IMG/VR virus record: IMGVR_UViG_3300042305_000730
Span: 1 to 64,000 of that record
DNA: 64,000 bases
Direction: 5' to 3' (one strand)
Source: a virus
In this document: positions 22,838 to 44,300 of the stretch, piece after piece
Layout of the letters: each line of letters begins with the position of its first letter
How positions within the stretch are numbered: position 1 is the first letter of the stretch
Program-made: the position numbers and the translations under genes
The notes under the pieces: generated by a model
Seen by the model: only the letters and a program-made list of their open reading frames with translations
What the model was told of the DNA's origin: nothing
Database searches by the model: none

Positions 22838-22848
22838 ATAGTTAGAGC

Positions 22849-23208: not shown

Positions 23209-23216
23209 AAGTTCTC

Positions 23217-23741: not shown

Positions 23742-23818
23742 TGGTTATCTCCAAATGGGCTTTACAACCATAATACTATCATTGCTGGTTTGAATGGGTA
23801 TACCAGTTTACTAGCATT

Positions 23819-24721: not shown

Positions 24722-24740
24722 GTGTACACCTTTTGATTAA

Positions 24741-25178: not shown

Positions 25179-25357
25179 TATGCGCTCCCACCATCATCTA
25201 CAAAGTAATCATTAAGTGGGGTGTCAGAGAAGCCGCTATCAGAGATAGTTTGTGGGAAGCGCTTCCAAACACCGTCAAGATAGCGCCAAACCATACCTCC
25301 AGCGATATACTCATCTCCAGAAGATGGAGAGTTGGGGAAATCAATTGGTGCGGGCAT
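25178..25357 (-). CDS. Stand-alone fibre N-terminal module (59 aa)
   Basis: Product MPAPIDFPNSPSSGDEYIAGG, then VWRYLDGVWKRF. It matches the first about 40 residues of the three large adhesins upstream (IDFPNSP...D.F..G...W.YDG..W) but has no Gly-rich array. Both its start and stop overlap neighbouring genes by the TAATG arrangement. It looks like a retained attachment domain after loss of the adhesin part, or a decoy or capping subunit. Confidence 0.65.
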   Translation of the reverse strand: MPAPIDFPNSPSSGDEYIAGGMVWRYLDGVWKRFPQTISDSGFSDTPLNDYFVDDGGSA

Positions 25358-26829: not shown

Positions 26830-26830
26830 A

Positions 26831-28420: not shown

Positions 28421-29616
28421 TATGCAATCACCAAACTTCCCGATGCTGTGAATGTTCTAACGGTGTATAAACCTGAAGTTGTGGCAGTACCACCAGTGAT
28501 GGTTTTGCCTGAGGCACTTGCCGTGAGGTAGCGAACAATGACAACACCAGAACCACCAGCGCCGCCAATTCCAGTATCAAAATTGTAGGCTCCACCACCG
28601 CCACCTCCAGTATTTGCTGTACCAGAAGTTCCATTACCTGCCGCACCACCAGCGTTAGTGCCACCAGCACCACCGCCACCGTTACCTCCTGCACCCGCTA
28701 GAGAGTTGCCTGCGGTATCTCTGCTATCTGCACCGCCTCCACCACCTGCATAGAAGGTTGCCGTTCCAGTGATAGACGAAGAAACACCTGCACCACCGTT
28801 AACTGGTACTGCACTTGAAGTGCCATTTGTTCCAACGGCTCCCGCACCACCACCACCACCATTGCTTCGTGGACTGACTTGTCCGCTTCCTCCACGAAAT
28901 CCCTGTCCAGTTGTTCCAGCACCAAAACTAGTTGAAGGGTAGGACGAGCCTCCTCCAGAACCGCCTGCCTGACCCGCTCCTCCTGATGTTTCGCTACCAC
29001 CACCACCACCACCTGTAGAAGTAATAGCATTGAAGGAGGAAGCAACCCCATTAGAGCCTGGCGAAGTATCAACAGTTGCTCCTGCGCCACCAGCACCAAC
29101 TGTTACCGTGTATGTTCCTGCAACCAAAACCATTGATGCTTCTGCACTCGCCCCTCCACCAGATGTTGCACCAGAAACGTTTGTTCTAAAGCCTCCAGCG
29201 CCACCTCCACCAGCACGGTCAGAACCCCCTCCTCCGCCGCCTGCAACAACCAGGTATTCAGCATAAAATGTTTTCGTATGCTGTGTACCGTCAGACCAAC
29301 CATCTGACAAATACACCTTCATCAAATTCGTATCTGTTTCAAAAACTGTTTGCCCAACAAAAGGAGAACCTGGTCTCGTACTGGAAGTACACACTGTTAC
29401 CACTGGAACTGTAGAAGCAAGTTTGGCTGAAGTTATTGTACTGTCAGCAATTTTGGCTGCCGTAACAGCACTAGACGCTAATTCGGTTGTACCAATAGAA
29501 CCAGCCGCAGCAACTGTTCCAGTAATTTCCCAAATCGTTCCTGACCATGTCCAAGTACGTGCACCTACCGTGTAGGTATCACCAACGCTTGGAGAGGCGG
29601 GAAAAGTAAGGGACAT
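28420..29616 (-). CDS. Glycine-rich adhesin-type protein 5
   Basis: A 398-residue member with the attachment module (LTFPASPSVGDTYTVG, WTWSGTIWE) and TAAKI repeats but no FN3 domain; AEYLVVAGGGGGG follows directly. The array ends GSGVVIVRYLTASASG and TVRTFTASGSLVIA. Absence of FN3 shows that modules have been gained or lost between copies. Shares one base of overlap with the previous gene's frame. Confidence 0.7.
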   Translation of the reverse strand: MSLTFPASPSVGDTYTVGARTWTWSGTIWEITGTVAAAGSIGTTELASSAVTAAKIADSTITSAKLASTVPVVTVCTSSTRPGSPFVGQTVFETDTNLMKVYLSDGWSDGTQHTKTFYAEYLVVAGGGGGGSDRAGGGGAGGFRTNVSGATSGGGASAEASMVLVAGTYTVTVGAGGAGATVDTSPGSNGVASSFNAITSTGGGGGGSETSGGAGQAGGSGGGSSYPSTSFGAGTTGQGFRGGSGQVSPRSNGGGGGAGAVGTNGTSSAVPVNGGAGVSSSITGTATFYAGGGGGADSRDTAGNSLAGAGGNGGGGAGGTNAGGAAGNGTSGTANTGGGGGGAYNFDTGIGGAGGSGVVIVRYLTASASGKTITGGTATTSGLYTVRTFTASGSLVIA

Positions 29617-29619
29617 CTA

Positions 29620-29988
29620 TTATTCCGAAGGAATAACGATTTCCACCCACTCTTGCTCTTCTTCGTCCCAACTGTACATACCCTCTTCTGGGCGAGCAAC
29701 TGGTGCTTCCCATTCAGTGGTGTCTTCATTAAGCGTCCAAGAAGGGAAAGGTTTGGGGGCGATGTATGCGTCTAGGGCAGAGTTATAGGTGTAGCCGATA
29801 CCTGCATAGCGAGCACGCATGTTGCCGTTGTACGAGGTCTGCTTCCACGTTCCACCCAACAGATTACGACAGAACTCAGCGCCTACGGCCTCTGATTCGT
29901 CGCCCTCTGCGTCTTTGCAATCATCGTTAGATACTACGATTACTCGCAATACAATGTTGTCTTCGCCAATTTCAGCAAAATGTGCCAT
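29620..29988 (-). CDS. Conserved phage protein between fibre genes
   Basis: A 122-residue product, MAHFAEIGEDNIVLRVIVVS, with GGTWKQTSYNGNMRARYAGIG, APKPFPSWTLNEDT and a Glu/Trp-rich end. This is a widespread family of tail-region proteins in aquatic phages; I know no determined function. Ribosome site CTAGGAGAAATTAAC. It probably is a virion or fibre-assembly part. Confidence 0.72.
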   Translation of the reverse strand: MAHFAEIGEDNIVLRVIVVSNDDCKDAEGDESEAVGAEFCRNLLGGTWKQTSYNGNMRARYAGIGYTYNSALDAYIAPKPFPSWTLNEDTTEWEAPVARPEEGMYSWDEEEQEWVEIVIPSE

Positions 29989-29999
29989 GTTAATTTCTC

Positions 30000-30869
30000 C
30001 TAGAAGGTTATGCTGCCAGATGCAGTAAAAGTATATATCCTGTAGCCACCTGTTGTTGCTACGGTTGGGGAACCAGTAGTTGATACTGCTAAATCAAATG
30101 CGTTTGAGTAGCGAATGACGACTATGCCTGAACCACCGCTACCACCTACACCGTTGGCATAGTACCAGCCACCACCACCTCCACCGCCAGTACTGGCTGT
30201 GCCAGAGGTAGCAGTTCCTCCAGAACCAGCGCCTCCACCCCCCAATCCACCGCTACCACCACCACCACCATCAGTTGTTCCTCCGCCGCCACCAGCATAA
30301 TAAACAGATGTGCCTGTTATTGACGATTGTACACCCACACCACCGTTTGATCCTGAACCTGCTGCGCCAGCACCGCCTCCACCACCTCCACCTTGAGACA
30401 CACCTGATGCACCATCATAACCTTGCCTTGGTGGTCCTGCAGTACCAGACCCAGCAGCACCGCTTCCAGTACCAGCGTAAGAAGCGCTACCGCCACCTGA
30501 ACCGCCTGAACCTGCATTTGTTCCTGGATTTGATGTTGCACCTCTACCACCACCAATAGATGTCTGACTAAATGCAGAACTATTTTGACCGTTTGAACCA
30601 GCGGCAGTAGGACCAGCACCTGATCCGCCAGCGCCAATCGTTATTGTATAGGTAGTTGCAGCAGTAATTGCCGTATTACCAGTAAGCAACCCACCACCAC
30701 CACCACCACCAGCAGTTCCTCCAGAACCACCTCCACCACCTGCAACAATCAGATATTCAATAGATGATGGATTGTTTGGCATTAATACTTGTTGAAGGGT
30801 GGTTAAGTTTAACATCCCACTTTTAGTGGTTCGCTTCGGTCCAATAGAACCACCAGGTCCTCTAGCCAT
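30000..30869 (-). CDS. Glycine-rich adhesin-type protein 6
   Basis: A 289-residue protein starting ARGPGGSIGPKRTTKSG, lacking the FPNSP attachment module, with IEYLIVAGGGGGSGG, a Gly-rich array and the end SGIVVIRYSNAFDLAVSTTGSPTVATTGGYRIYTFTASGSITF. Its closing block is closest to adhesin 2. Start follows a TAATG overlap with the preceding gene. Confidence 0.68.
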   Translation of the reverse strand: MARGPGGSIGPKRTTKSGMLNLTTLQQVLMPNNPSSIEYLIVAGGGGGSGGTAGGGGGGGLLTGNTAITAATTYTITIGAGGSGAGPTAAGSNGQNSSAFSQTSIGGGRGATSNPGTNAGSGGSGGGSASYAGTGSGAAGSGTAGPPRQGYDGASGVSQGGGGGGGAGAAGSGSNGGVGVQSSITGTSVYYAGGGGGTTDGGGGGSGGLGGGGAGSGGTATSGTASTGGGGGGGWYYANGVGGSGGSGIVVIRYSNAFDLAVSTTGSPTVATTGGYRIYTFTASGSITF

Positions 30870-31228
30870 TAACTAATCTCCTCATAACTACATACTGCTT
30901 CAAGATCAGAGTTAGCAGAAGCAGTGAGGCGCAAATCATCGCCTTCTTCTAGATAAATAGATTTACTAATGACATCTAGTGTCGCATCTGGTGGGACAGA
31001 AACAGTGTGGGCAATTTCATAAGAAATAGAAGCGGAAGAACGATACAAACCAACTGAAATGTCTGCGGCATTCGTACCGTCAACGTTTGCTATGTACAAG
31101 GCATTGACCTTAAGCACCTTGCCGCTTGATGCCGCATTTGTGACAATAGCAGTAGCCGATGTTGTTACTAGTTGTACAGCCGTCTTACCTAAGATGGTTG
31201 TTACGTTGACGATATTTGGTGCTGCCAT
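30869..31228 (-). CDS. Small virion-type beta protein
   Basis: A 119-residue product: 'TTSATAIVTNAASSGKVLKVNALYIANVDGTNAADISVGLYRSS' and 'AHTVSVPPDATLDVISKSIYLEEGDDLRLTAS'. A jelly-roll-like small structural family common next to fibre genes in T4-like cyanophages and others. Likely virion. Confidence 0.65.
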   Translation of the reverse strand: MAAPNIVNVTTILGKTAVQLVTTSATAIVTNAASSGKVLKVNALYIANVDGTNAADISVGLYRSSASISYEIAHTVSVPPDATLDVISKSIYLEEGDDLRLTASANSDLEAVCSYEEIS

Positions 31229-31229
31229 T

Positions 31230-32480
31230 TTAGCCTCCGAAAACTATTGACATTGCGATTGCTTTACCTGTTGAAACTGGGGTAGCCCATTTTAGACCAG
31301 TTGCTGTAGAAGAATCTACTGTAAGAACTTGACCAGCAGAACCAGCCGTGAGACCGCCAATAGTGTTATCGGCAGTTCCGACAAGAAGGTCACCTTTAGC
31401 ATTAATGGTGTTTACGAGAGCGCTAAATGGAGAAGCGCCAACTTCAATCCAATTTGTTCCGTAATAAACATAGGTACCACCCGTAAGTGAGTTAAACCAG
31501 ATTTGCCCAGAAACAGGTGATGCTGGGGCGGAATCTTGCACACTGGCGGTTACACCTGATGCACCAATTTCAATCCACGAAGAATCGTAATAAACAAAGG
31601 TTTGTGCGGTATCGGTATCAAACCACATACTTCCTTCAAGTGGAGATGCAGGGGCGGAAGAACTAGACACCATTCGTGCGCCCGTACCTACACCACCAAC
31701 CTCAATCCATTGAGAGTCGTAGTAAACAAATGTCTTGCCAACCGTAGAGTCAAACCAAAGTTGACCAGCCAATGGTGCTGCGGGGGCTGTATCAGAGATA
31801 GTTGCGCCACCAATAATTGTTTCAGGAACCCAAGCCGTACCATTCCACTTCAAGAATTGCCCAGCGGATGCCACAGAAGCAGAAACGTCACCAATGTCAT
31901 CCAAGGTATTAATAGTTGGGATGGTTCCGTTCACCCAACGAGTTCCATCAAACTTTAGGAATTGACCGCTAACAGGGACGGTAAACAGAACATCAGAAAG
32001 GTCAGTAAGGTCTTCTACGAGGTCTGGTTCGCCACTTGCTTGTAGCCAATGGCTATCGTAATAAATGTAAGTTTCTAGTGTTGTTGAGTTAAACCAAAGG
32101 TCTCCTTCTGATGGAGAAGCGGGTGCGGTAGCAGAAACTTCTAGGCTTGCACCACCACCACCAAAGGATGCTGAGGCGGAAACAAACTTAGTACCATCAA
32201 ACTTAAGAACTTGGTCAGTAGTCGCACCTGTTGGGTCAATCTCAATGTTGTCTACAAATAGAGTTGGTGTTTTAAAAGTGTCATCGGTGCGAAGAACATC
32301 AGCACCATCACGGTAAAGGTTTACATCTCCATTACCAGAACCAGGGCCCCAAGTAAGGCGACCGCCTGCTTCAATCTTTAAGCGAGCATATGTGTCAGCG
32401 TCAACAAATACGGTTATAGCCTCAGAACCAGCAGATGTTAACTGCTTGACAGTAATAGGTACTGTAAATTTCTGTGCCAC
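31230..32480 (-). CDS. Fibre protein with tandem W-F-Y repeats
   Basis: A 416-residue protein (GTG start with GAGG upstream). After an N-terminal segment with GPGSGNGDVNLYRDGADVLRT there are four or five tandem repeats of about 45 residues containing APASPxEGxxWFxxxTxxTxVYYDSxWIEIG, alternating with 'QFLKFDGTRWVNGTIPT' repeats. Such repeats form trimeric beta-structured fibre shafts. C-terminal LLVGTADNTIGGLTAGSAGQVLTVD is a common fibre motif. Confidence 0.72.
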   Translation of the reverse strand: MAQKFTVPITVKQLTSAGSEAITVFVDADTYARLKIEAGGRLTWGPGSGNGDVNLYRDGADVLRTDDTFKTPTLFVDNIEIDPTGATTDQVLKFDGTKFVSASASFGGGGASLEVSATAPASPSEGDLWFNSTTLETYIYYDSHWLQASGEPDLVEDLTDLSDVLFTVPVSGQFLKFDGTRWVNGTIPTINTLDDIGDVSASVASAGQFLKWNGTAWVPETIIGGATISDTAPAAPLAGQLWFDSTVGKTFVYYDSQWIEVGGVGTGARMVSSSSAPASPLEGSMWFDTDTAQTFVYYDSSWIEIGASGVTASVQDSAPASPVSGQIWFNSLTGGTYVYYGTNWIEVGASPFSALVNTINAKGDLLVGTADNTIGGLTAGSAGQVLTVDSSTATGLKWATPVSTGKAIAMSIVFGG

Positions 32481-32527
32481 GACCTCAATCGCTTCCTATG
32501 TTGTGACCCCGCAAGGTCTATTTGCTA

Positions 32528-33823
32528 TTAACCTACTACAACGATGGTGTAATCGTTAGCCGAAATCGTACCGTACAGAACAACTGACAGGGTGTCTGCG
32601 TTAGAACGGGTCACATCTCCAATTACCGTAGCACCAGTTGATACTTCATAAATCTGCACGTTTACATCGGTTGTATTAAAGTTGTGGGTAACAGTGGTAG
32701 TTGAAACACCTGTACTGCTTGCGGCACAACCCTGTTTAGCAATACGGGCAAGTGCTGAGGTAGTTGTTGTAACTGCACCAGCGCTGGTTTTAATACCAAG
32801 GTTTGTACGAGCAGTTGCTGCATCACTTGCACCAGTACCACCGTCTGCAACAGCAACGTCTGTACCATTCCAAACACCTGTGGTAATTGTCCCGAGGGTT
32901 GTAATTGAAGACTGACCAACATAGTTTGCAGAAATGTCTACAGAATCAGCATTAACTGTAATACGGTTTGTTGTACCAACCACATCAAGCGTATTTCCGC
33001 TCTTTGTGAGACCATCGCCAGCAATGACTTGACCAGCACCTGAGAACTGAACAAAGGTTAACCCTGTTGTTCCAAGAGTAATCGTGTCGTTTGTTGTAAG
33101 AACAAAACCGTTGTCTCCGTTTACTGTACCTTCAGCAACGAAGGTAAACATTCCTGTCGTAACTTTTGCTGATGTATTGGCATCAGTTGCGCGAGAGGCG
33201 GCACCAGAAGCAACCGCTACATAAATACCGTTTTCAGATGCTGTGCTCTGGTCTTTGAGGAGAACACGATCACCAGCAACAAGTGTGACTCCGTCAATTA
33301 CGTCGCCTGCTTCAAGAGCCGAAGCGATTGCCACTGGAGCAACGGAAGCGACTCTTACTGAATCTTTGACATCAAGACCTTGACGAGCGGCATCAACATA
33401 ACCCTTGGTGGCAATGTGTGCGGCATCTGTTGGGTCGGCAACTTTTGCGTTACCAGAGGCATCTCGCTTGACAAGTTTGCTTGCAGTTGCATCTGAGGTT
33501 GCATCTGTGAGCATCTGCCACATTGCGGCTGGTAATAGACCCGCACTATCAGTATCAGCAACAGCAAGAGTAAGGGTAACTGTGCCGTTTGATTCAGATA
33601 CGGTAAGGGCTTCAGCAATACCTGCACCACCACCTGAAACAATGGTGTGTGGTAGCGAGCGCCAAGCACTGTTTGCATAAACCTTAATTGTGTCAGTCGT
33701 GGACTGGTAAATTAAGCGGCCTTCAAAGTTACCACTTGATGGGTCTGCGCCCACAACCTCAAAGGTAGCGTTAATCAGTTGATTCTGATTAAGGTCAATA
33801 TTAGTTAGAAACTTCTGAGCCAT
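32528..33823 (-). CDS. Tail-fibre-like protein
   Basis: A 431-residue protein. The N-terminus (MAQKFLTNIDLNQNQLIN) and a central block 'ATKGYVDAARQGLDVKDSVRVAS...VDGVTLVAGDRVLLKDQSTASENGIYVA' are typical of long phage tail fibres; the C-terminal part has 'VWNGTDVAVADGGTGA' and a small domain with HNFNTTDVNVQIYEVSTG. AAGGACACTTA before ATG. Receptor-binding or shaft role inferred. Confidence 0.75.
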   Translation of the reverse strand: MAQKFLTNIDLNQNQLINATFEVVGADPSSGNFEGRLIYQSTTDTIKVYANSAWRSLPHTIVSGGGAGIAEALTVSESNGTVTLTLAVADTDSAGLLPAAMWQMLTDATSDATASKLVKRDASGNAKVADPTDAAHIATKGYVDAARQGLDVKDSVRVASVAPVAIASALEAGDVIDGVTLVAGDRVLLKDQSTASENGIYVAVASGAASRATDANTSAKVTTGMFTFVAEGTVNGDNGFVLTTNDTITLGTTGLTFVQFSGAGQVIAGDGLTKSGNTLDVVGTTNRITVNADSVDISANYVGQSSITTLGTITTGVWNGTDVAVADGGTGASDAATARTNLGIKTSAGAVTTTTSALARIAKQGCAASSTGVSTTTVTHNFNTTDVNVQIYEVSTGATVIGDVTRSNADTLSVVLYGTISANDYTIVVVG

Positions 33824-35014: not shown

Positions 35015-35314
35015 CTACTGACCTTTTTTCTTCCTTGGAAAGTCATGCCCGACCTCTAGCATCTTCTTGCGAACAAAACTTTCCATGTTTTTAACGGCAC
35101 GGTGGTCTGAAGGGGTGCTTGCCATGTGCACAATTCCATCATCCTTGATACGCAGTTGAATGTGCCCGCTGTGTGTTTTATGGCCCATCACTGGAGTGCT
35201 TGCTTGGCTTATACGGGAAAGCACCTCACGAAAAGGCTTATGGGTAGTTAGGGAGCGAATACGATCTTCACTGAGTGCATGTTGCTCCCAATTAAGGTTA
35301 TTCTCACCAGCCAT
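35015..35314 (-). CDS. HicA-like small protein
   Basis: A 99-residue product. The C-terminal half has GHIQLRIKDDGIVHMASTPSDHRAVKN, which follows the HicA/YcfA double-stranded-RNA-binding-like pattern: G-H-x-x-x-x, a beta turn, then 'STPSDxRAxKN' before the last helix. The His in GHIQ corresponds to the HicA catalytic His. No HicB-like antitoxin is seen beside it. In phages such solitary proteins occur without proven toxicity. Leaderless-type start. Confidence 0.6.
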   Translation of the reverse strand: MAGENNLNWEQHALSEDRIRSLTTHKPFREVLSRISQASTPVMGHKTHSGHIQLRIKDDGIVHMASTPSDHRAVKNMESFVRKKMLEVGHDFPRKKKGQ

Positions 35315-36040: not shown

Positions 36041-37330
36041 TTAGAACAACCTGATAGACAGGCTGCCATCCTTTCCTCTTATGACACCTGGTCTACTGTT
36101 CTTATTTTCTTCTTTTATTTCTCTTTGCCTTACTGCAACATGATCCATGCGTTTTACGTTTACGCTCTTAGGTAATGGTGGTGCAGTTGGGGCAAGTTTT
36201 TCATAACCAGGAAGGGTGCTTTGCGTCTTTGGTGGCAGTGGTGCAGTGTAATGGGCGTGTACAGCCTGAGAATACTCTCCAACATCACCAAGACCTAATT
36301 GTTTTAAACCTTCACGGACATGGGGATGGTTCTCCACCATTTGACCTAAATACAGATGTCGGGCAGTAGTTGCGTACTTTGAGTTTTTTGCTGCTAACTT
36401 GCCAGTCTTTTCTTCTATATTTTGCCTTAAAGGCGCTAAGTGCTTGTCGGCAAGGGCATCCATATCTGGCAAAGACTCAATACCAGCCTTTCCATGCATA
36501 GCAACATGCAACCTAGTTGCTGCGTACAATGCTTGTTCGTGCCGATCTCTCCACCCTTTAAAGTTTACGCCGTAACCACCACCAGTTTTCTTAAGATCTA
36601 AAACCCGTTCATCATTTTCAATAGGGTTTAGGTAGCGCTCGTTTACCTCGTCACCACTCTCAAAATCCGTTGTTGTTCCAAACCTATCCTTATACCCATC
36701 TGCAACACCCTCAAACACAGGAGAGGTTACTACCTTACCTTTAGTAGTTGATTTGGCAGTTTCTATTTCTCGGTACCCAAGCCTTTTACCATTATATTGT
36801 GTTGTTCTAGCGCCTTGAGCACTTAGGTGATCTTGGTCTTCTTTATGACCCCATTCGTGGGTAAATGTGTTTCCTAGGTCGTGATGTGATGCAGGGTCAC
36901 CATGTACGTTATATGCGTTCATTACTATTTTGTTATCCCCAGCACTGTACTGTCCAGCCCGTTTAGTGGATCGCAGTCCTTCAACTCTAATTGGGTTTTT
37001 TTCCAACATAGTTTTTGAAATGTTAGTGGATGCTATTGCTTGAGGTATATCCTTCTTTACAACCCCATATACAGAATATCTATGTAAGTTACCTATATCT
37101 GATGAGCCAATACTTGTTGCTTGTCTAATATCTTGTTCTCGTTGCTTAGATCCATACAGTGGATCATTACGAGACTGTGTTGCGGTATCTGGGTGGAAAA
37201 GTAAACCTTGTGGGTTTTTGGAGCGTGGCGTTCCACCAGACCCTCCATAAGAGTGCGTATCTTCGTAAGGGGTTGTTTTGTCATCACCTTCAAAGTAAGT
37301 ATTATTAAACTGTTCTCCAAGGTTAGGCAT
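36041..37330 (-). CDS. HExxH metallopeptidase-like protein
   Basis: A 429-residue protein. Near residue 155, FTHEWGHKEDQDH contains HEWGH, the zinc-binding HExxH signature; a Glu or His for the third ligand is not certain. Flanking helices and a preceding 'NKIVMNAYNVHGDPASHHDLGN' segment resemble toxin-type metallopeptidase domains. The rest is polar with no signal peptide, so it would act in the cell or be packed in the virion. TATAAT six bases before ATG. First large gene of the putative effector block. Confidence 0.55.
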   Translation of the reverse strand: MPNLGEQFNNTYFEGDDKTTPYEDTHSYGGSGGTPRSKNPQGLLFHPDTATQSRNDPLYGSKQREQDIRQATSIGSSDIGNLHRYSVYGVVKKDIPQAIASTNISKTMLEKNPIRVEGLRSTKRAGQYSAGDNKIVMNAYNVHGDPASHHDLGNTFTHEWGHKEDQDHLSAQGARTTQYNGKRLGYREIETAKSTTKGKVVTSPVFEGVADGYKDRFGTTTDFESGDEVNERYLNPIENDERVLDLKKTGGGYGVNFKGWRDRHEQALYAATRLHVAMHGKAGIESLPDMDALADKHLAPLRQNIEEKTGKLAAKNSKYATTARHLYLGQMVENHPHVREGLKQLGLGDVGEYSQAVHAHYTAPLPPKTQSTLPGYEKLAPTAPPLPKSVNVKRMDHVAVRQREIKEENKNSRPGVIRGKDGSLSIRLF

Positions 37331-37336
37331 AGGTTA

Positions 37337-37342
37337 ATTATA
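37337..37342 (-). promoter_or_regulatory. -10 box of putative leaderless promoter (HEWGH protein)
   Basis: TATAAT on the minus strand, six bases (TAACCT) before the ATG at 37330. Confidence 0.55.
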
Positions 37343-37347
37343 AACCA

Positions 37348-37521
37348 TTATCCACCGTTAGAGTAAAAACCCCTACCTACAAGGTTTACTGCTGGAGAAA
37401 AGTAAACAGGGCGCAATCTTTCATTACAGTCAGGACACAAGATTGTTCTTTGCTCATCGTAGATACTACGGGTTTCTTCGTGCCGATGGTCGTTTGAACA
37501 CTTGTAGGCGTATGTGGGCAT
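37348..37521 (-). CDS. FmdB-type zinc ribbon protein (57 aa)
   Basis: Product MPTYAYKCSNDHRHEETRS, then CPDC and VGRGFYSNGG. CxxD/N at residue 8 and CPDC near residue 29 with the terminal GRGFYS are the FmdB small zinc-ribbon signature (first pair degenerate: only one Cys, with His residues nearby). Starts two bases after the preceding stop. Possibly transcription-related, like other FmdB-type proteins. Confidence 0.75.
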   Translation of the reverse strand: MPTYAYKCSNDHRHEETRSIYDEQRTILCPDCNERLRPVYFSPAVNLVGRGFYSNGG

Positions 37522-37523
37522 AG

Positions 37524-38099
37524 TTATAAGCCTAACTCTTCTTTTGCCTCAGCGTGATACCCGCCCCCATCTCGTTCTTCTGCCCCAGGGTCAGTATTGA
37601 ACTGTTGAGTACTTATATACTGAACATGCCCTGATGTTACTAACTGGTGTGGAATTACATAAGAAGTAGAGCCTGGGTCTTCCCAACGATTTCTATACTT
37701 GTTAATACTGGTTTTGCTATTTTCCTTTACCCGCATGTTTTCTTGATAATCCTTGGGCGGTTTAGGTGCGTTGTCGCTGTATCCCTCTTCGTGTGGGTCT
37801 TCAAAAGTCATCATTGACGGGCGTTTATTAATTTGGTAAGTGTGCATATATGTTGTGAAATCAGGACCGTTATTATCTTCTTGTATTCCCTCTTCAGTCA
37901 TTTGACTGTAATACTGTTTTTCATGGGCATGCTGCATCATTAATGATCGGTCTAAAGCGGCATTTATTGTCCCAGCGTGAAACCCACTCTTTTTATAACC
38001 TTTTCTGAAAGGCTCAGCATGACTGGCAAGCACATGTGGGGGTGTTGGGTTATTACTAGCGTGATACACCGTAATGTTAGTTGGATCTTTCCTAGACAT
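37524..38099 (-). CDS. Putative ADP-ribosyltransferase-like protein A
   Basis: A 191-residue protein. ITVYHASNN near the start and SGFHAGTINAALDR about 30 residues on resemble the 'H-x-S/G ... G-x-H-x-G-T ... A' layout of H-type ADP-ribosyltransferase-like folds; 'YVIPHQLVTSGHV' may supply the last beta strands. Catalytic residues cannot be assigned with certainty. Coupled to the next gene by TAATG. One of several ART-like genes in this block. Confidence 0.4.
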   Translation of the reverse strand: MSRKDPTNITVYHASNNPTPPHVLASHAEPFRKGYKKSGFHAGTINAALDRSLMMQHAHEKQYYSQMTEEGIQEDNNGPDFTTYMHTYQINKRPSMMTFEDPHEEGYSDNAPKPPKDYQENMRVKENSKTSINKYRNRWEDPGSTSYVIPHQLVTSGHVQYISTQQFNTDPGAEERDGGGYHAEAKEELGL

Positions 38100-38620
38100 T
38101 ATTTAAACCCCTTTAAGTTCTTTCTTGCTCTGTGTTTTCCTTTGCTACCAAGTCCAGGTGCAGGTGCGGCAACCTTTCTGCTCCCTTGATCAAAAAATAC
38201 TTCACCCTCACCCTCATGACCTATTCCGATGATGTGTTCCCGAGGAACTAGGTAGATGTGGAGTTTGTTGTCTTGACCGTAGTGGTGGATGCCAAACTCT
38301 TCTTTATTTGGATTATTGCCCGTCCACTCAGGATATATAGAACCACTTCGTATTTTGGCACTTTTAGGAACACCACCTCTGTGGGTTACTTGAACCTGAT
38401 CAGGAAGGTTAACTTCATTCTTTAGATGCTGTTGCAGGTTTTGGTAGGGTTCACCACTCCTGTCTTTTGCTTCGTGTAAGTACTCTTTAGGCCACTTAGT
38501 AGTGCCATGTGACCATTGCTCTATATCACTCTCATAATCAGTACCTTCAAAGTATGGGGCATGTCCCTTTTCCCAACTTTCAGAAAACTGATCCCAATTA
38601 ATACCTTCGTGTGCAGCCAT
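38099..38620 (-). CDS. Putative ADP-ribosyltransferase-like protein B (R-S-E type)
   Basis: A 173-residue protein. VTHRGG holds Arg81, IRSGSIYP (90-96) could be the STS-like motif, and GEGEVFFDQGS has E138-x-E140, the ExE of Arg-modifying ADP-ribosyltransferases, followed by VFF as in known exoenzymes. Order and spacing (about 11 and 45 residues) agree with that fold. T4 Alt and ModA are precedents for phage ARTs. No signal peptide; basic C-terminal tail KGKHRARKNLKGFK. Confidence 0.55.
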   Translation of the reverse strand: MAAHEGINWDQFSESWEKGHAPYFEGTDYESDIEQWSHGTTKWPKEYLHEAKDRSGEPYQNLQQHLKNEVNLPDQVQVTHRGGVPKSAKIRSGSIYPEWTGNNPNKEEFGIHHYGQDNKLHIYLVPREHIIGIGHEGEGEVFFDQGSRKVAAPAPGLGSKGKHRARKNLKGFK

Positions 38621-39282
38621 TACATGCCTGGGAGTCGTGGTTGATCGTAATATTCTTTAGGTGCTGGCTGCTTTGCAGGGCGGAGCATCTGTTTAAGGAA
38701 CTGCTTGCCTGCCATAACTTCTTTTTGAGGAATATAACCTTCATAAGCACCAGCCATGTCCAATATTTGTTTTGGATTACGCATAATCACGGGTGCTATA
38801 TCTTCTGGTTCAGGTTCTTCAGTCCGTTCAGCATCTGTCAACATGTCAGGGTTAGACCCGTGTGGGACTGCTATACCTTTATTGACAGCAGTTTTAGACA
38901 GTGCGCTGCTAAATTTAGTTAAAGACGAGCCTGTTACCATCTGTGCATGTGGGTGGTCTTGTTGGGCTAGTGCCATGACCGTCATCATGTGGGGGCGAAC
39001 ACGCTTGTCTGCTCGCATACTGTCAACCGTAAGGGTTTCAGGAGTTCCGTAAAACAACTCGGTTGGGTACTTATGTGATTCAGATAGTCGGGTTGGGTAA
39101 CCATCTTCACCAAAATTAGGGTATTCCTGTGCTTTTTGATAAGTAAACTTTGCTTCACCTACTGGATGTATAGGCTTTTCATTGTCAAGGCTTGAATAAC
39201 TTCCTTCAGTACCAACAACACCATATATCCTGCGGCGCTTTGCATAACTGTCGTCAGGTACGTTTTTATAGTACTGAGCCAT
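38620..39282 (-). CDS. Hypothetical protein of the effector block (220 aa)
   Basis: Polar protein with a helical middle, RPHMMTVMALAQQDHPHAQMVTGSSLTKFSSALSKTA, where 'TGSSLTKFSSALSK' is reminiscent of a short phage motif near DNA- or head-associated proteins. C-terminus is Pro/Lys-rich. Coupled on both sides by TAATG overlaps. No enzymatic motif seen. Confidence 0.5.
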   Translation of the reverse strand: MAQYYKNVPDDSYAKRRRIYGVVGTEGSYSSLDNEKPIHPVGEAKFTYQKAQEYPNFGEDGYPTRLSESHKYPTELFYGTPETLTVDSMRADKRVRPHMMTVMALAQQDHPHAQMVTGSSLTKFSSALSKTAVNKGIAVPHGSNPDMLTDAERTEEPEPEDIAPVIMRNPKQILDMAGAYEGYIPQKEVMAGKQFLKQMLRPAKQPAPKEYYDQPRLPGM

Positions 39283-39461
39283 TACTTATCCTTCTTCTTT
39301 GCTTTACGCTTCTCTAGAAGGTATTGTGGGTCACGCTTGGTAAACCCTGCGCTTTGATGGAGTTCGTCAATAGTAATAGGCTCACCGTCTATCCAGGTAT
39401 GCCCTTTAGGGTTGGTGTTAGATTTCCAACGGAATTGGGGGCTTTCGTGCCTAGGGTCCAT
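39282..39461 (-). CDS. Small hypothetical protein (59 aa)
   Basis: The start at 39461 (MDPRHESPQFRWKS) overlaps the stop of the upstream gene as TAATG and is preferred over an ATG 14 codons earlier inside that gene. Product has a Lys-rich tail (RKAKKKDK). No family. Confidence 0.5.
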   Translation of the reverse strand: MDPRHESPQFRWKSNTNPKGHTWIDGEPITIDELHQSAGFTKRDPQYLLEKRKAKKKDK

Positions 39462-39829
39462 TAATCTATTTTCCTTTCTGGGTGCTTCATTCCAGGTTTC
39501 CAACCCATACCCTCGGCATACCCAATTACTTTAAAGCCCTTTTTGCTGTCAAAACTTTGCATAACGTTACCATCAGGCTTAATAAGGTCGGGGAATGCAT
39601 CGGCATCATCATGTTCCCAAGGTTCAATTTCTGACCAATCATGGGGAACGACCTTATGTAGATGCTCACCAAACTCACTGGCATAAGTAATGTCTTCTGT
39701 AGCGTGTACATCGTCATCCCCGTCTGCTTGGGGTACTACAGACCCACCTACAGGTATCTTATTTGGTGAACCGTGATACAAGTAAGGGCCAAATAGTTCT
39801 TCGTTGATGTGTGTATGCTTACGAGTCAT
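39461..39829 (-). CDS. Arr-like ADP-ribosyltransferase-type protein C
   Basis: A 122-residue product. YLYHGSPNKI (His19) then SVVP and HATEDITYASEFGEHLHKVVP match the small Arr (rifampin ADP-ribosyltransferase-like) fold: 'LYHGS ... G..I.P ... YATED...A..FG ...V.P'. The Tyr of the family is His here (VHATED). Paralogous to 42897-43202 on the opposite strand. Target unknown. Confidence 0.55.
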   Translation of the reverse strand: MTRKHTHINEELFGPYLYHGSPNKIPVGGSVVPQADGDDDVHATEDITYASEFGEHLHKVVPHDWSEIEPWEHDDADAFPDLIKPDGNVMQSFDSKKGFKVIGYAEGMGWKPGMKHPERKID

Positions 39830-39832
39830 TAG

Positions 39833-40243
39833 TTAATCCTCATACTTAATAGCATGTCCTTGGTTTTTGTGAAAACTTTCCCAACGAGACACTGTATCTT
39901 CAGGCATTACCCCACCATCTGCATTAGATAGATTAGGAATACTTCCCGCCTTATCTAACATAAAGTCCATAGCAGCACCATGTGCTTCCCTTCGTGAACC
40001 AAAGTCTCGTGTTTGTGTACCACGCCCTACTAAACTAATTTCTTTTCTAGCAGGATTGTGCCACTCCCAACCATACTTACCAGTTTTTACTTGGGTTAAA
40101 GAATCTTGCACACGCTTGCCTTCTCCACGTTTATACATTTCTGTCATTGTGCTTTCAGACATGCCAGGAGCGCCATACGTAGCAACCTGCTCGTAGATAT
40201 GTGGTCGCCATTCATTAAATTGATACTCATTAAGTGGTTTCAT
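39833..40243 (-). CDS. Hypothetical protein (136 aa)
   Basis: Charged product, MKPLNEYQFNEWRPHIYEQV..., with 'GYGWEWHNPARKEISLVGRGTQTRDFGSRREAHGAAMDFML', where the beta-turn-helix pattern vaguely resembles small RNA-binding-type folds. First gene after a leaderless promoter TATACT. No firm call. Confidence 0.5.
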   Translation of the reverse strand: MKPLNEYQFNEWRPHIYEQVATYGAPGMSESTMTEMYKRGEGKRVQDSLTQVKTGKYGWEWHNPARKEISLVGRGTQTRDFGSRREAHGAAMDFMLDKAGSIPNLSNADGGVMPEDTVSRWESFHKNQGHAIKYED

Positions 40244-40249
40244 GAATCA

Positions 40250-40255
40250 AGTATA
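40250..40255 (-). promoter_or_regulatory. -10 box of putative leaderless promoter
   Basis: TATACT on the minus strand, then TGATTC, then ATG at 40243. Nearly identical to the boxes at 42562 and 42885 on the other strand. Confidence 0.6.
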
Positions 40256-40260
40256 GATGG

Positions 40261-40872
40261 TTATAAAGAAGTGTCTGGAGAAATAACTGTGTCAAATGGG
40301 TCAGACACATCTAACCCCTCTGGATACCAGATTTTAGTGTTTGTAATGTATTTAGGGCGTTCGTCTGTCAATTTAACAAAAGACTCGTCAAACACCAGCA
40401 TACGGTTACCAGGCCAAGCGCCCACACGACCACAGTCTAAACGCACAAAGTTAAAGTGTTTATGCTGATCAGGGGTTGAGGAATACATATCGTCATAGGG
40501 CGCAGCAGTAAACATATACCTACCTGTTTCCCAGACCCCTTCTTTCATATACACCTTCACGGCTAGTTCAGACAATGCACTGTATTCATGGGTAGTGAAA
40601 TCTTGCCCGTAACAACTCCATACCTGTAGGTGGTCTAAAGGGTGGTGGTGTTTAGCAGGCGTATAGAAAGTTAAAGCGTGAAGGGGGACATGTTGGACTA
40701 AAGCGCCGTTTTCTAGGAGTAGGGATACTCCCCATGCCCTATTAGGGATTGCAGACAGCCCATAGACTAAGCAGGCTGTATATTCCCCAAACCCTTTTTC
40801 AAAGTTATACAGAAACTCATTCTGCACATAACAGTAAAATGGTTTAGGAATGTCTGTAATGTGCTTTGCCAT
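40261..40872 (-). CDS. Conserved phage hypothetical protein (203 aa)
   Basis: Product MAKHITDIPKPFYCYVQNEFLY... with 'ALVQHVPLHALTFYTP', 'LQVWSCYGQDFTTHEYSALSELAVKVYMKEG' and 'RPKYITNTKIWYPEG'. This arrangement is found in many marine and freshwater phages; the function is not known to me. Beta-rich, cytoplasmic. Starts seven bases after TATACT, head-to-head with the plus-strand operon. Confidence 0.65.
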   Translation of the reverse strand: MAKHITDIPKPFYCYVQNEFLYNFEKGFGEYTACLVYGLSAIPNRAWGVSLLLENGALVQHVPLHALTFYTPAKHHHPLDHLQVWSCYGQDFTTHEYSALSELAVKVYMKEGVWETGRYMFTAAPYDDMYSSTPDQHKHFNFVRLDCGRVGAWPGNRMLVFDESFVKLTDERPKYITNTKIWYPEGLDVSDPFDTVISPDTSL

Positions 40873-40879
40873 TTACATA

Positions 40880-40885
40880 AGTATA
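40880..40885 (-). promoter_or_regulatory. -10 box of putative leaderless promoter
   Basis: TATACT on the minus strand, seven bases before the ATG at 40872. Together with the plus-strand box at 40917 it makes a divergent promoter pair in a 56-base gap. Confidence 0.55.
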
Positions 40886-40916
40886 TACGGACACATCAAC
40901 GGCGAACTTTTTCGTT

Positions 40917-40922
40917 TATACT
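40917..40922 (+). promoter_or_regulatory. -10 box of putative leaderless promoter (plus-strand operon)
   Basis: TATACT, then AGACAA, then GTG at 40929. Opens the only plus-strand gene group of the window. Confidence 0.6.
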
Positions 40923-40928
40923 AGACAA

Positions 40929-41438
40929 GTGCCAGCACGAGAGTACGTCAACAAGGGACAGTTCCCAGAGTCTAAATATCGTAATAAACTACTGTATCGT
41001 GCTGTTACCTTGCATGACCCTGAAATTACTGAGAGATTACACGCAGGAACTATTTCCGCCCCAGAAGTACTCAAACATCTAGGTTCCTCTACAGGAGTAG
41101 GAATGCATTGGGCTGGGGGCGGTCCAGACATGCTATACAGTAGTCGTATGCATGGTGCGGTAAACGACACCCCTGCCACTGTAGTTATGACTATTCACCA
41201 TAACGACCAAATGACCGACAACACTTGGCATGGTGAATTTAAAGGTCAAGGAGCCACCCTTGGTGAATACCATCCAACAGTACCAACACAGGCGATAATG
41301 CACAGCATGGCGGTAGACACTGGTGACCCTACCAAACCAATGCAGTGGGATAGTGACCCCCATTGGAGACCTCTTCCTGGCTCTGCTGGTCTAAAAATTG
41401 AAACATTTTACGATAGAAAACTAGATCGTAATGGGTAA
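40929..41438 (+). CDS. Putative ADP-ribosyltransferase-like protein D
   Basis: A 169-residue product with GTG start and no ribosome site. LLYRAVTLHDPE (Arg in the first strand) and, about 45 residues on, GVGMHWAGGGPDMLYSS, then a strand TVVMTIHHNDQM, resemble ART folds of the 'YRG...G.HWT...A' type; acidic residues near the end cannot be assigned. It overlaps the ParB-like gene by eight bases. Weak structural inference. Confidence 0.4.
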   Translation: MPAREYVNKGQFPESKYRNKLLYRAVTLHDPEITERLHAGTISAPEVLKHLGSSTGVGMHWAGGGPDMLYSSRMHGAVNDTPATVVMTIHHNDQMTDNTWHGEFKGQGATLGEYHPTVPTQAIMHSMAVDTGDPTKPMQWDSDPHWRPLPGSAGLKIETFYDRKLDRNG

Positions 41439-41727
41439 GCGACTCACTGCACAGCAGATCATGGATAACTACCAACCTGGGGATATTCTTAGGCATCAAG
41501 AACCTGAAGAGTTCTGGGGATACAAATTAGAAGAGGCCAAAACTAACAAAATATCTAAAGATAAGACTTTGTATCAAGATATTGAAGAACGTGGGCAGCA
41601 AAAACCAATCACCCTTGGCTATAAAGGGCTTGGTGCTCCTTCTATCTTGGATGGTCACCACCGTTTAGCAGCATTACACCACATGAACCCTAACCAGTTT
41701 GTTAAGTACCGAAGGGTAACCCCGTAA
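41431..41727 (+). CDS. ParB/Srx-like domain protein
   Basis: A 98-residue protein. 'LYQDIEERGQQKPITLGYKG' followed by ILDGHHRLAALHHM is the ParB-N/sulfiredoxin-type nucleotide-binding motif (DGHHRLAA). There is no HTH or dimer domain, so it is a minimal catalytic-type fold rather than a partition ParB. Related domains act as CTP/ATP-binding or nuclease-like modules. Flanked by effector-type genes, coupled through overlaps on both sides. Confidence 0.7.
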   Translation: MGKRLTAQQIMDNYQPGDILRHQEPEEFWGYKLEEAKTNKISKDKTLYQDIEERGQQKPITLGYKGLGAPSILDGHHRLAALHHMNPNQFVKYRRVTP

Positions 41728-42074
41728 TGCCAGCACATGAAAGCCTGAGTAACTACCAATTTCGCTACCGCCCTGCCAAAATGAAGGCATTCCAGCATGA
41801 AGTCGCTGCTGTGGATAAAAAAACAGGTAAAAACGTAGGTTACCTACTCTGGAGGAACAGTGGCTCAGTAGATGAAGTGTATGTAAGTGAGCCAAAGCGT
41901 CGTATGGGCATGGCTACCGAAATGTGGAATCATGCAAATCGGGTGGCAGATGCTGCAAAAGGCAATGTTCCGCACCCAGAACACTCTTCATCCCGTACCG
42001 ACGCAGGCGATGCTTGGGCGAAATCTGTAGGTGGATACATTCCACCGAACACCATGGACAAGGAAAAACGATAA
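41727..42074 (+). CDS. GNAT-like acetyltransferase 1
   Basis: A 115-residue protein. 'HEVAAVDKKTGKNVGYLLWRNSGSVDEVYVSEPKRRMGMATEMWNHA' holds the beta-bulge and the acetyl-CoA P-loop R-R-x-G-x-A (RRMGMA). A tail with GDAWAKSVGGYIPP is shared with the two GNAT-like proteins downstream. Small size is normal for single-domain GNATs. Start overlaps preceding stop (TAATG). Confidence 0.65.
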   Translation: MPAHESLSNYQFRYRPAKMKAFQHEVAAVDKKTGKNVGYLLWRNSGSVDEVYVSEPKRRMGMATEMWNHANRVADAAKGNVPHPEHSSSRTDAGDAWAKSVGGYIPPNTMDKEKR

Positions 42075-42520
42075 TGGCTGCACACGAACACTTAAACCCT
42101 GAGCAAGTTAGGGCTATAGCAGAAGCACATGGTGATAAGTATTTTGCCAACTACAAAGACCCAGTAAAACGTGATCGTGGTTGTTGCTATGACTATTCTG
42201 AGCATTTCGGTGAGTTTGGTAATGTAAAAGGAACAAAGATTAAACCATATGAAACTGAGCAAGATGGCGAAGCACATGCAATTAACGTTGTCCCAACCAG
42301 TCAAGGCCCTCACGCAGTAGATTTTACATACCTACAATTTGATAAAACAGCAAAAATGCCACATTTTGAACCATTACATGAATATACTGCACGTTTTAAG
42401 AACAGATTCCCAAAAATGATTGAGTATCCACTACAAACTCCTTCAGGATCTGTAGAACACTTCTACCCAGACATGAATTGGGAATATAAAGGCCCAACTA
42501 ACGAGCACGGCAATTGGTAA
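42074..42520 (+). CDS. Papain/transglutaminase-like cysteine enzyme candidate
   Basis: A 148-residue product; the start is the ATG at 42074, which overlaps the preceding stop. RGCCYDYSEHF could hold the catalytic Cys at the head of a helix, EAHAINVV the following strand with His, and HAVDFTYLQFD the next His and Asp. This Cys...His...Asp order with 'VDFTYLQF' resembles small papain- or transglutaminase-type toxin domains (deamidases and peptidases). Residue assignment is uncertain. No signal peptide. Confidence 0.42.
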   Translation: MAAHEHLNPEQVRAIAEAHGDKYFANYKDPVKRDRGCCYDYSEHFGEFGNVKGTKIKPYETEQDGEAHAINVVPTSQGPHAVDFTYLQFDKTAKMPHFEPLHEYTARFKNRFPKMIEYPLQTPSGSVEHFYPDMNWEYKGPTNEHGNW

Positions 42521-42545
42521 TTGCCCTTTAGACGGCAAATTTTTC
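42521..42545 (+). terminator. Weak rho-independent terminator
   Basis: TTGCC, an eight-base loop, GGCAA, then ATTTTT. A five-base stem plus T-run directly after the cysteine-enzyme gene; the next gene has its own promoter, which agrees with a stop here. Confidence 0.45.
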
Positions 42546-42561
42546 ACCACCCAAATAGCCC

Positions 42562-42567
42562 TATACT
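42562..42567 (+). promoter_or_regulatory. -10 box of putative leaderless promoter (GNAT 2)
   Basis: TATACT, TGATAA, ATG: the exact 15-base string recurs at 42885. Confidence 0.62.
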
Positions 42568-42573
42568 TGATAA

Positions 42574-42879
42574 ATGCCTGAGTACACCTTTCAGTACGGC
42601 CCGTCTGACGAAGATGTGCCACATGAAGTCATTGCGAAAGAGGATAACAAAGTTGTAGGTCGTTTATCGTGGCACCCACAGATTGAAAATGTCTTTGTTG
42701 AAGAAAACCACCGTAGGAAAGGTATCGCTACAGGAATGTACCGTCATGCCCAGCACATTTCTACCCAATTTGACGATGTAGCACCGCCCCAACATAATCC
42801 AATTCGCACTGTAGAAGGCGACGCTTGGGCTAAATCTACGGGTGACACACTTCCTCCACGTATTACCCCACGTAAGTAA
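42574..42879 (+). CDS. GNAT-like acetyltransferase 2
   Basis: A 101-residue protein: HEVIAKEDNKVVGRLSWHP, ENVFVEENHRRKGIATGMYRHA with P-loop RRKGIA, and the shared tail NPIRTVEGDAWAKSTGDTLPP. A paralogue of genes at 41727 and 43202. Leaderless promoter TATACT. Acetylation target unknown. Confidence 0.68.
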   Translation: MPEYTFQYGPSDEDVPHEVIAKEDNKVVGRLSWHPQIENVFVEENHRRKGIATGMYRHAQHISTQFDDVAPPQHNPIRTVEGDAWAKSTGDTLPPRITPRK

Positions 42880-42884
42880 CCATC

Positions 42885-42890
42885 TATACT
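42885..42890 (+). promoter_or_regulatory. -10 box of putative leaderless promoter (Arr-like)
   Basis: TATACT, TGATAA, ATG at 42897. Confidence 0.62.
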
Positions 42891-42896
42891 TGATAA

Positions 42897-43202
42897 ATGG
42901 CAGCCTCAGACCATCTTCACCCTACGTTATTCCATGGGTCTAGACAACAATTTAAGCCAGGGGACACTATCCAGCCCGTTACTGAGGCAACCTACAAAGA
43001 ACGAGGCTATTCCACCCCAATGCCTGCCTTTGCCACTGAGAATCTGAATCGGGCGAGGGCCTTTGGGCATGTCTATGAGGTAGAGCCTCATGACTGGAGA
43101 GATGTAGAATGGGAAGAAGACGAGGGCGAGGGCGCTGAAGAAGGCGACTACGCAGCACTAAGTCATACCAAAGGCTACAAAGTCATACGTAAGGTGAAAT
43201 AA
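42897..43202 (+). CDS. Arr-like ADP-ribosyltransferase-type protein E
   Basis: A 101-residue product: TLFHGSRQQFKPGDTIQP (His13), then FATENLNRARAFGHVYEVEPHDW. This is the compact Arr fold signature ('FHGS ... PGD.I.P ... A(Y)TEN...A..FG.VY.VEP'). The Tyr that in Arr stacks on nicotinamide is Phe here (AFATEN). Paralogous to the minus-strand product of 39461-39829, so a duplicated and inverted gene. A conserved C-terminal end 'TKGYKVIRKVK' is shared with 'KGFKVIGYAE' there. Confidence 0.6.
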   Translation: MAASDHLHPTLFHGSRQQFKPGDTIQPVTEATYKERGYSTPMPAFATENLNRARAFGHVYEVEPHDWRDVEWEEDEGEGAEEGDYAALSHTKGYKVIRKVK

Positions 43203-43546
43203 TGCCTAAACCAATCAAATATCAGTACGATGAGGGTGGACCTGATGTTGATCACCGTATTAATGCAAGGCAAGGACACTCTACCGTAGGGTTTTTGGCG
43301 TGGCAGGGTAATACTACAGATAAATACAACCATGTTCACGCCGTATATGTGCGACCAGATATGCAGCGAAAGGGTATTGCAACCAAGATGTGGAAGCATG
43401 CTCATTACATTTCTGAACAATTTGAGTCAGTAGCACCACCAAGACACTCTCCAACCCGTACTAATGATGGTGACGCTTGGGCGAGGGCCGTTGGGGGAGA
43501 CATACCACCAAAAAAAGGAACACTGCCCATGACTTGGGAGTTGTAG
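43202..43546 (+). CDS. GNAT-like acetyltransferase 3
   Basis: A 114-residue protein: GHSTVGFLAWQGN, HAVYVRPDMQRKGIATKMWKHA (P-loop QRKGIA) and the tail SPTRTNDGDAWARAVGGDIPP. Coupled to the Arr-like gene by a TAATG overlap, suggesting the two proteins are made together. Last gene of the plus-strand group. Confidence 0.68.
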   Translation: MPKPIKYQYDEGGPDVDHRINARQGHSTVGFLAWQGNTTDKYNHVHAVYVRPDMQRKGIATKMWKHAHYISEQFESVAPPRHSPTRTNDGDAWARAVGGDIPPKKGTLPMTWEL

Positions 43547-44300
43547 AGCCAAATTTAGGTCTACGTTAGGGCAAAATGGTGTGTGTGCAATTTTTTGGGA
43601 TGGGTCTATCTGGTGGGTTGATGCTTAGTGGGGGGTGGGCCCTCCTCCCCACGCAACCCTCAACCTCTACTTAAGGGTGGGGGGTCTACCCTCAACCCTC
43701 AACCCTCACTAGAGAGTTCACCCATCAACCCTCTACCTATACTGTAGGGTTAGTGGATGGTTGAGACTTTGGGCGAATCCCTTGTGTCATATGGGCACAA
43801 CCCTCAATGGCTCAATAGGAGCCTCTAGGAGCGTCTGATAGGCGGATACGCCTACTCATAGGGAATCGTCCTTTGCTCCTCTCCTATGGCATCCTGACGC
43901 TTCTCAGAGGGATCTAGGGATGAAGGGCGATAAGCATCACTCCACGTGGCATTGGCGGGCTAGACGTGGGTCTATGCCGGGGGGTCAGCACGACATTGGG
44001 ATGCTAGGGGAGCATTTGCACTGGTTCCGGCACTCCAGTGATTGATATCTCACTGCATATGCATGCACTCACCAATGACCGATTCATTCATGCATTCCTT
44101 CCCTTCATCCCTCCTCCTGATAGATGAATTGAGTGGTGATGTGCTGGGCGAAATACTCCACGTGGCACTCCACAATGGAATGGTTCATATCGAGATATGC
44201 CATCGTTCGGATGGAGGCTCTCCTCATCCATGTGCTGCTCTTCTGTCCCCTCTCCGATGATCCTGTGACGTGCTTTTCAGTGATGTAGGTGAACTTGGGC
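43547..44300. other. Long non-coding region with direct repeats, possible origin or control region
   Basis: About 750 bases without a supported gene, lying where plus- and minus-strand genes converge. It holds five copies of CAACCCTC (43654, 43693, 43700, 43726, 43798), G-tracts near 43630 and 43680, and several short palindromes (CATATGCATGCA-like near 44056). GC content and dinucleotide use differ visibly from the adjacent genes. Iteron-type repeats suggest a replication origin or site of regulation; a packaging site is another option. Confidence 0.5.
43654..43805 (+). repeat. Direct repeats CAACCCTC x5
   Basis: Exact octamers at 43654, 43693, 43700, 43726 and 43798; two are arranged head-to-tail sharing one base. 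Partial copies (ACCCTCAACC) extend some of them. Iteron-like spacing. Confidence 0.6.

Follow-up and report, generated by a model that had tools for sequence, protein, structure and literature searches.

In phage T4, the first 10 residues of the internal protein IPIII suffice for capsid targeting (PMC9026906). The T4 proteins Ip1-3 have no homology outside their packaging leader, and many internal proteins (IPs) of T-even phages have been recognised from this signal sequence alone (PMC12373910). Virion-packaged polyvalent proteins carry ADP-ribosyltransferase (ART), GNAT, zincin metallopeptidase and ParB/Srx domains (Iyer et al. 2017, PMC5512222); among phages, ARTs are over-represented in myoviruses and in the vicinity of head genes (PMC9503650). 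Here we describe a locus of an uncultured freshwater phage in which these kinds of enzyme are encoded by separate small genes and several of the proteins begin with a common peptide of about 12 residues, hereafter called the tag. The locus, hereafter the block, lies in a stretch of 64,000 nucleotides (the window), positions 1 to 64,000 of the 96,978-base IMG/VR virus record IMGVR_UViG_3300042305_000730. It holds 17 open reading frames (ORFs; at least 60 residues, without large overlap) between the tail-fibre module, which ends at about 35.0 kb, and an SNF2 helicase gene at 44.4 kb; ORFs to the left of a strand switch at 40.9 kb are on the minus strand and those to the right on the plus strand. 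An initial annotation had named the region a possible phage effector arsenal, and as a description this is borne out by the domain kinds, the hypervariable locus and the tail-fibre neighbourhood in a contractile-tail phage. We propose, at about an even chance of being right, that the block is a cargo locus whose tag would direct loading into the virion and injection, in the manner of the T4 capsid-targeting sequence (CTS) and internal-protein genes.

A common N-terminal tag on otherwise unrelated proteins

Relatives of the phage were gathered by scans of viral contigs, with the tail-fibre protein, the block proteins 38099 and 42074 (block genes are denoted by their leftmost position), the ParB-like, Arr-like and metallopeptidase proteins and a DNA pattern of the tag as queries. 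These scans yielded some 20 different related contigs, a number of them 95-100 kb long; the contigs are metagenomic, some near-duplicates were removed by hand only, and start codons are predicted. Each close relative whose sequence was read has its block at the same place, flanked by the helicase and tail-fibre modules, but with a gene set of its own, and the gene content of the locus is hypervariable and reshuffled between related phages. Across the related contigs, the tag, with the consensus M-A-A-H-E-x-[LI]-[NS]-x-x-Q-[FL], stands at the N terminus of about 20 families of the block locus that have no other mutual similarity. Its bearers in the window are of differing kind, and include an R-S-E protein (38099-38620, minus strand; MAAHEGINWDQF), a GNAT (41727-42074, plus strand; MPAHESLSNYQF), a 148-residue Cys/His protein (42074-42520, plus strand; MAAHEHLNPEQV), an Arr-type ART (42897-43202, plus strand; MAASDHLHPTLF) and a 169-residue protein (40929-41438, plus strand; VPAREYVNKGQF). 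When weighted by family, N-terminal matches to the tag were found in 13.3 of 63 families, with 1.0 expected from internal 20-residue windows of the same proteins, and a longer form of the motif gave 9.9 N-terminal against 0.4 internal matches. In the 97-kb genome, 6/17 block ORFs match, as compared to 5/123 ORFs elsewhere, the regular expression for the tag yielding some false positives. The tag can also be present or absent inside one superfamily, since GNAT 41727 is tagged and GNATs 42574 and 43202 are not; it therefore behaves as a module.

We found no description of the tag in the open-licence papers that were searched. A search of 84,980 prokaryote genomes with the tag DNA pattern and a ParB-like profile returned nothing, so the search revealed no copy in a prophage or host. 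Likewise, no homologue of use emerged when the block proteins and their relatives were compared by tblastn with cultured phages, a Streptococcus phage methylase being a weak match (E=0.03). The solo GNAT gp113 of Mycobacterium phage Alice, which has been proposed as virion-associated, does not have the tag.

In order to separate peptide from DNA, we compared the tags with the bodies of the same genes. Codon variety in the tag is near that of the bodies (CAC 19/CAT 12, GAA 20/GAG 23), and the entropy of Ala codons is 1.4-1.7 bits in the tag and 1.9 bits in the bodies. Identity over four phages is 100% for the tag and 69% for the body in the 38099 family, while in the 42074 family the values are 73% and 45%. 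Codons vary while the tag residues stay, and therefore selection appears to act on the tag peptide and not on the DNA. These data bear on the idea that the tag is a functionless 5' gene end which hitch-hikes, spread via recombination or through gene birth by 5' fusion. The cassettes are indeed tightly packed, with repeated upstream stretches such as CCAACTCGCCCAAATAGCCCTATACTTGA, and the reshuffling of genes seen in relatives would fit; yet synonymous codons are nearly as free as in the bodies under constant residues, some families conserve the tag more strongly than the body, and the residues of the tag shift in step between lineages, which makes hitch-hiking an improbable account.

The shift between lineages takes the form of dialects. 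Residues 4-5 of the tag are HE in 36/61 tags of the main group, as compared to 0/21 in the L138 and L139 records taken together (Fisher p=4e-7, an optimistic value since related proteins are not independent). In L138/L139 these residues are mostly [SKR][DN], and they are so across GNAT, ART, ParB-like and other families. A further dialect, [SR]PE[ND][IM]G[QR]QF, occurs in L109 on an ART, a GNAT and a ParB-like protein; the claim of dialects is based on the L138/L139 group, with L109 as an anecdotal addition. Such dialects would be the expected pattern if tags track a changing common partner.

Head genes, promoters and the proposed destination of the tagged proteins

The record carries head genes for a terminase, a portal and a Phage_capsid_4-type capsid, as well as a family A DNA polymerase gene and a tail sheath gene, the latter pointing to a contractile tail. 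It also encodes a WhiB-family regulator (PF02467, E=1e-13; 55159-55569, minus strand), and therefore the host is taken to be an actinobacterium. By their portal, the closest cultured phages are the Streptomyces phages GiJojo, Alone3, LuckySocke, pSt2308 and BRock (about 52-57% identity); compared to BRock and Alone3, the capsid is 60% and the terminase 45-47% identical. One head lineage is common to 12/12 related records in which a portal was found, with capsids 60-91% identical. Two genes away from the portal, a proteasome beta-subunit-like protein is encoded (5609-6244, minus strand; PF00227, E=3.5e-8; N terminus MTTIVGVQGDG). Nine related contigs have it at 60-84% identity, the L107, L109 and L142 records gave no counterpart, and it is unmatched in BRock and Alone3; it might act as a protease in head maturation, or else engage the proteasome of the host.

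Because of the common address peptide, the virion-type enzyme kinds and the one head lineage, we hold virion loading and injection to be the most likely role of the block. The locus would then be a hypervariable array of cargo cassettes in contractile-tail actinophages, in which small, mostly single-domain enzymes are each joined at their N terminus to the common address peptide. The tag would bind a single phage-encoded partner, most likely a component of head assembly, and the bound enzymes would be loaded into the virion and injected along with the DNA. Once in the host, the ARTs, GNATs, zincin and ParB/Srx proteins would act on host proteins and nucleic acids by modification or cleavage, or would neutralise defences.

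Besides the tag, the block displays -10 elements very close to its start codons. TATACT is found 2-12 bases upstream of the start of an ORF of at least 60 residues in 5 cases in the 97-kb genome, and 5/5 are in the block. These elements lie 6 nt upstream of the start of 39833-40243 (40250-40255, minus strand), 7 nt upstream of that of 40261-40872 (40880-40885, minus strand), and 6 nt upstream of the GTG start of 40929-41438 (40917-40922) and of the starts of 42574-42879 (42562-42567) and 42897-43202 (42885-42890), the last three on the plus strand; in addition, a TATAAT lies 6 nt upstream of the start codon of the metallopeptidase gene 36041-37330 (37337-37342, minus strand). Counted over called genes, TATA[AC]T 5-7 bases upstream is present at 6/17 in the block as compared to 3/128 elsewhere (p=7e-5). 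In many relatives, too, tagged genes are preceded by this arrangement, CTATACTTGATAAATG, which is largely missing in L138 and L139; no conserved -35 accompanies the -10 elements. Leaderless messages are common in actinobacteria, and transcription starting at the A of the ATG would make such messages here. With -10 elements at tagged starts, many cassettes of the main group thus consist of a promoter, a tag and a body. The tag and these leaderless-type promoters, neither of which figured in the initial annotation, provide the strongest argument that the block proteins have a joint role.

The promoters also bear on the main rival to virion loading, namely that enzymes made early, by host RNA polymerase from leaderless promoters, are docked by the tag on a partner within the infected cell and are never packaged; candidate partners are RNA polymerase, the ribosome, the sliding clamp, or a phage replication or degradation complex. 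That the -10 promoters are specific to the block and that its genes lie on both strands would suit this reading, as would the ParB/Srx family, where the tag continues as QLxMF and may resemble the bacterial sliding-clamp peptide QL[SD]LF. The clamp was weighed for the ParB-like members only, and the majority of tags finish in QF without a clamp peptide. Moreover, the L138/L139 group has the tag although its promoter is largely missing, and the same enzyme kinds are known virion cargo. Intracellular docking is thus a serious explanation that we nonetheless consider unlikely. The leaderless-type promoters at many tagged starts, together with a bias of the second codon to GCT, could also mean that the tag is an adaptation of the translation start, Ala-rich early codons aiding initiation on leaderless mRNAs. 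This would leave the conserved [LI][NS]xxQF at residues 7-12 unexplained, and tags are also borne by promoterless intra-operon genes and in the L138/L139 group; we give this account very little credence.

Several observations weigh against virion loading. In the ParB-like family the tag is 31% identical and the body 38%, so that here the tag is not better kept, and part of the block members do not carry a tag at all. Tags within one phage are no more alike than across phages when all phages are taken, in a test where one dialect was common to most phages and the set included false positives. The block promoters are unlike those of the structural genes and half of the block genes are opposite to the late strand, so co-expression of the block with head assembly is not evident. 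A prohead protease that could cleave the tag was not recognised among the head-module genes scanned, and the single head lineage of the relatives may reflect plain common descent. Finally, the block is absent from the stretches of BRock and Alone3 that were read (for BRock, all but the last 12.5 kb), in which the sole tblastn match of block proteins covers 23 residues (E=0.012).

BRock gp37 and Alone3 gp191 were considered as tag bearers, their N terminus PHNLSA..AMGAQFK being vaguely alike; with one low-complexity gene in each phage, they were not counted. These proteins (L150:17586-18752 in BRock, L148:49018-49776 in Alone3) might be a cultured lead to the partner or to the ancestor of the tag.

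Enzymes and gene layout of the block

The ORFs of the initial annotation are present where it had placed them, and its enzyme assignments were upheld in part. Among the three GNATs, 42574 (42574-42879) and its paralogue 43202 (43202-43546), both untagged and on the plus strand, score above the Pfam PF00583 (Acetyltransf_1) cut-off, while 41727 is slightly below it (E=7e-4) and has an alignable paralogue at 1.5e-18. The HEWGH metallopeptidase (36041-37330, minus strand), a zincin, has H158, E159, G161, H162 and a downstream E207-G-x-A-D that are invariant in 9 relatives. Its Pfam match is weak (Tox-MPTase2, E=0.03), no structural match was found by sequence, and it carries a short tag, MPNLGEQF (MALGPQF and MPLGPQF in relatives). 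The ParB/Srx-like protein (41431-41727, plus strand), which displays GHHR, belongs to a family of about 40 members with an invariant G-x-H-R, in most of which the tag is followed by QLxMFxPAxxL. Relatives of this protein match the PHROG ParB family at E~1e-3, and against the PDB the family gives a weak ParB match only (0.12). The remaining cargo proteins have no significant match in PHROG, and PADLOC matched 0/10 block proteins, so there is no sign of a known defence system.

The four or five ARTs of the initial annotation divide into two that are confirmed, two that are probable and one that is not confirmed. The two Arr-type proteins, 39461 (39461-39829, minus strand; tag variant MTRKHTHINEELF) and 42897, are encoded on opposite strands and are paralogous (E=3e-6); in L139 the relative of 39461 begins with MASWEHMSKEQF, followed by a near-identical GPYLYHGS. 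Their family profile matches a solved rifampin ADP-ribosyltransferase (PDB 2hw2, E=7e-5), although 42897 itself is under the Arr cut-offs (16.6 vs 25 bits in Pfam, 12.9 vs 130 in NCBIfam); the relative L139:605 is above that of Pfam at 31.4. For 37524 (37524-38099, minus strand), with VYHAS ... FHAGT, an AlphaFold model (predicted local distance difference test, pLDDT, of 71) has RES-type toxins and then pertussis S1 as best Foldseek neighbours. The match is weak (E=0.06) and the top structural matches are all of the ART superfamily, which makes this protein a probable ART/RES-like enzyme. It does not have the full tag; some relatives do bear one (MAASDHVGDHI, MAARDHISNPQF), and another has none. 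In 38099, a probable R-S-E ART by its residues, the motif R..SGS..E-x-E-V-F is largely conserved among 6 relatives, S94, E138, E140, V141 and F142 being invariant and the R column not. The AlphaFold model of this protein failed (pLDDT 53), and therefore the call was made from the motif only. In contrast, the search gave no match for 40929 as an ART, and none of significance for 42074 as a papain/transglutaminase-like protein, although 5 relatives all keep its C38, H68 and D83. Hence the claim that the ART set exceeds that of T4 holds only when the two probable ARTs are joined to the two sure ones. Altogether, the block is enriched in conflict-type enzymes, and we did not find most of its members to lack an ART, GNAT or protease fold.

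The Arr match raises the question of an ordinary accessory island, in which unrelated, moron-like genes would have no joint role and the ARTs and GNATs would act on antibiotics or metabolites as Arr and AAC-like enzymes do. Arr enzymes inactivate rifampin in bacteria, hypervariable accessory islands are common in phages, and the block Arr-type ARTs are of similar size to the rifampin enzyme and have its H-G-S motif. However, the profile match is remote, with the window proteins under the family cut-offs, and the common tag and its dialects are left unexplained. We regard such an island as highly improbable, and rifampin as an unlikely substrate of the block ARTs.

The other genes of the block are all on the minus strand. 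A 99-residue protein of unknown fold (35015-35314) has the tag variant MAGENNLNWEQH (MGTEEHLNWDQH and MGTEQHLNWDQH in relatives), a small protein (39282-39503) has homologues in L123 and L088 with the tag MPAQNNLNGQQF, and a 136-residue protein without assignment (39833-40243) has the variant MKPLNEYQF (MKALNQYQF in its L132 relative). Two are untagged. The 220-residue protein at 38620-39282 belongs to a variable, fast-evolving family whose best-kept end is a C-terminal Q-x-x-L-P-G-[MI]; this end and the QLxMF of the ParB-like proteins are reminiscent of sliding-clamp-binding peptides. The 203-residue protein of unknown function at 40261-40872 is 59-99% identical in relatives despite its variable surroundings, and has its own leaderless-type promoter. 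Between the block and the helicase gene, a non-coding stretch of about 500 bases (43550-44040) contains the short repeated words CCCTCAACC and GGGTTG. On the other side, the block adjoins a row of tail-fibre genes that are paralogues of one another (phrog_2295 and others; 21938-33823); this row, too, varies between relatives.

Comparison with packaged and fused phage effectors

In a more specific form, our proposal would be that a new address-tag system, unrelated to that of T4, loads dozens of swappable enzyme families into the virions of actinobacterial myophages, with dialects that match a phage-encoded receptor; this we hold as tentative, somewhat short of an even chance. Should the tag be a virion address, head-loading peptides like those of T4 would have arisen more than once; one could then use it to search for new injected effectors among the uncultured phages that infect abundant freshwater actinobacteria, and a short peptide would be at hand for directing proteins of choice to the heads of actinophages. 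An intracellular docking peptide, on the other hand, would reveal a common host or phage hub exploited by about 20 protein families. Under either reading, the joint role of phage-encoded ARTs becomes directly testable.

The block resembles the T4 CTS/IP genes in that a short N-terminal peptide (about 10-19 residues) is carried by otherwise unrelated small proteins at a variable locus; the contractile tail is common to both, and T4 too packages an ART (Alt). Unlike the T4 proteins, the cargo of the block consists mainly of recognisable enzymes (ART, GNAT, zincin, ParB/Srx) and is far more numerous, no prohead protease or cleavage site was recognised in the block phages, and many genes have leaderless-type promoters of their own. 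Phage and host group also differ, packaging in the block phages is what we infer, and no relation between the tag sequences is claimed; block proteins and T4 internal proteins are thus alike in logic, with no claim of homology. Compared to the polyvalent proteins, where domains are strung in one large polypeptide, the block has separate small genes with only the tag in common. Its tagged ARTs weakly match Pfam ART-PolyVal, but membership fails because the domains sit in separate, single small ORFs. Finally, as in MuF-fused effectors and MuF polymorphic toxins (PMC9503650, PMC5576092), a common N-terminal part is joined to interchangeable C-terminal enzymes; whereas MuF is a folded, head-associated structural domain, the common part in the block is a peptide of about 12 residues.

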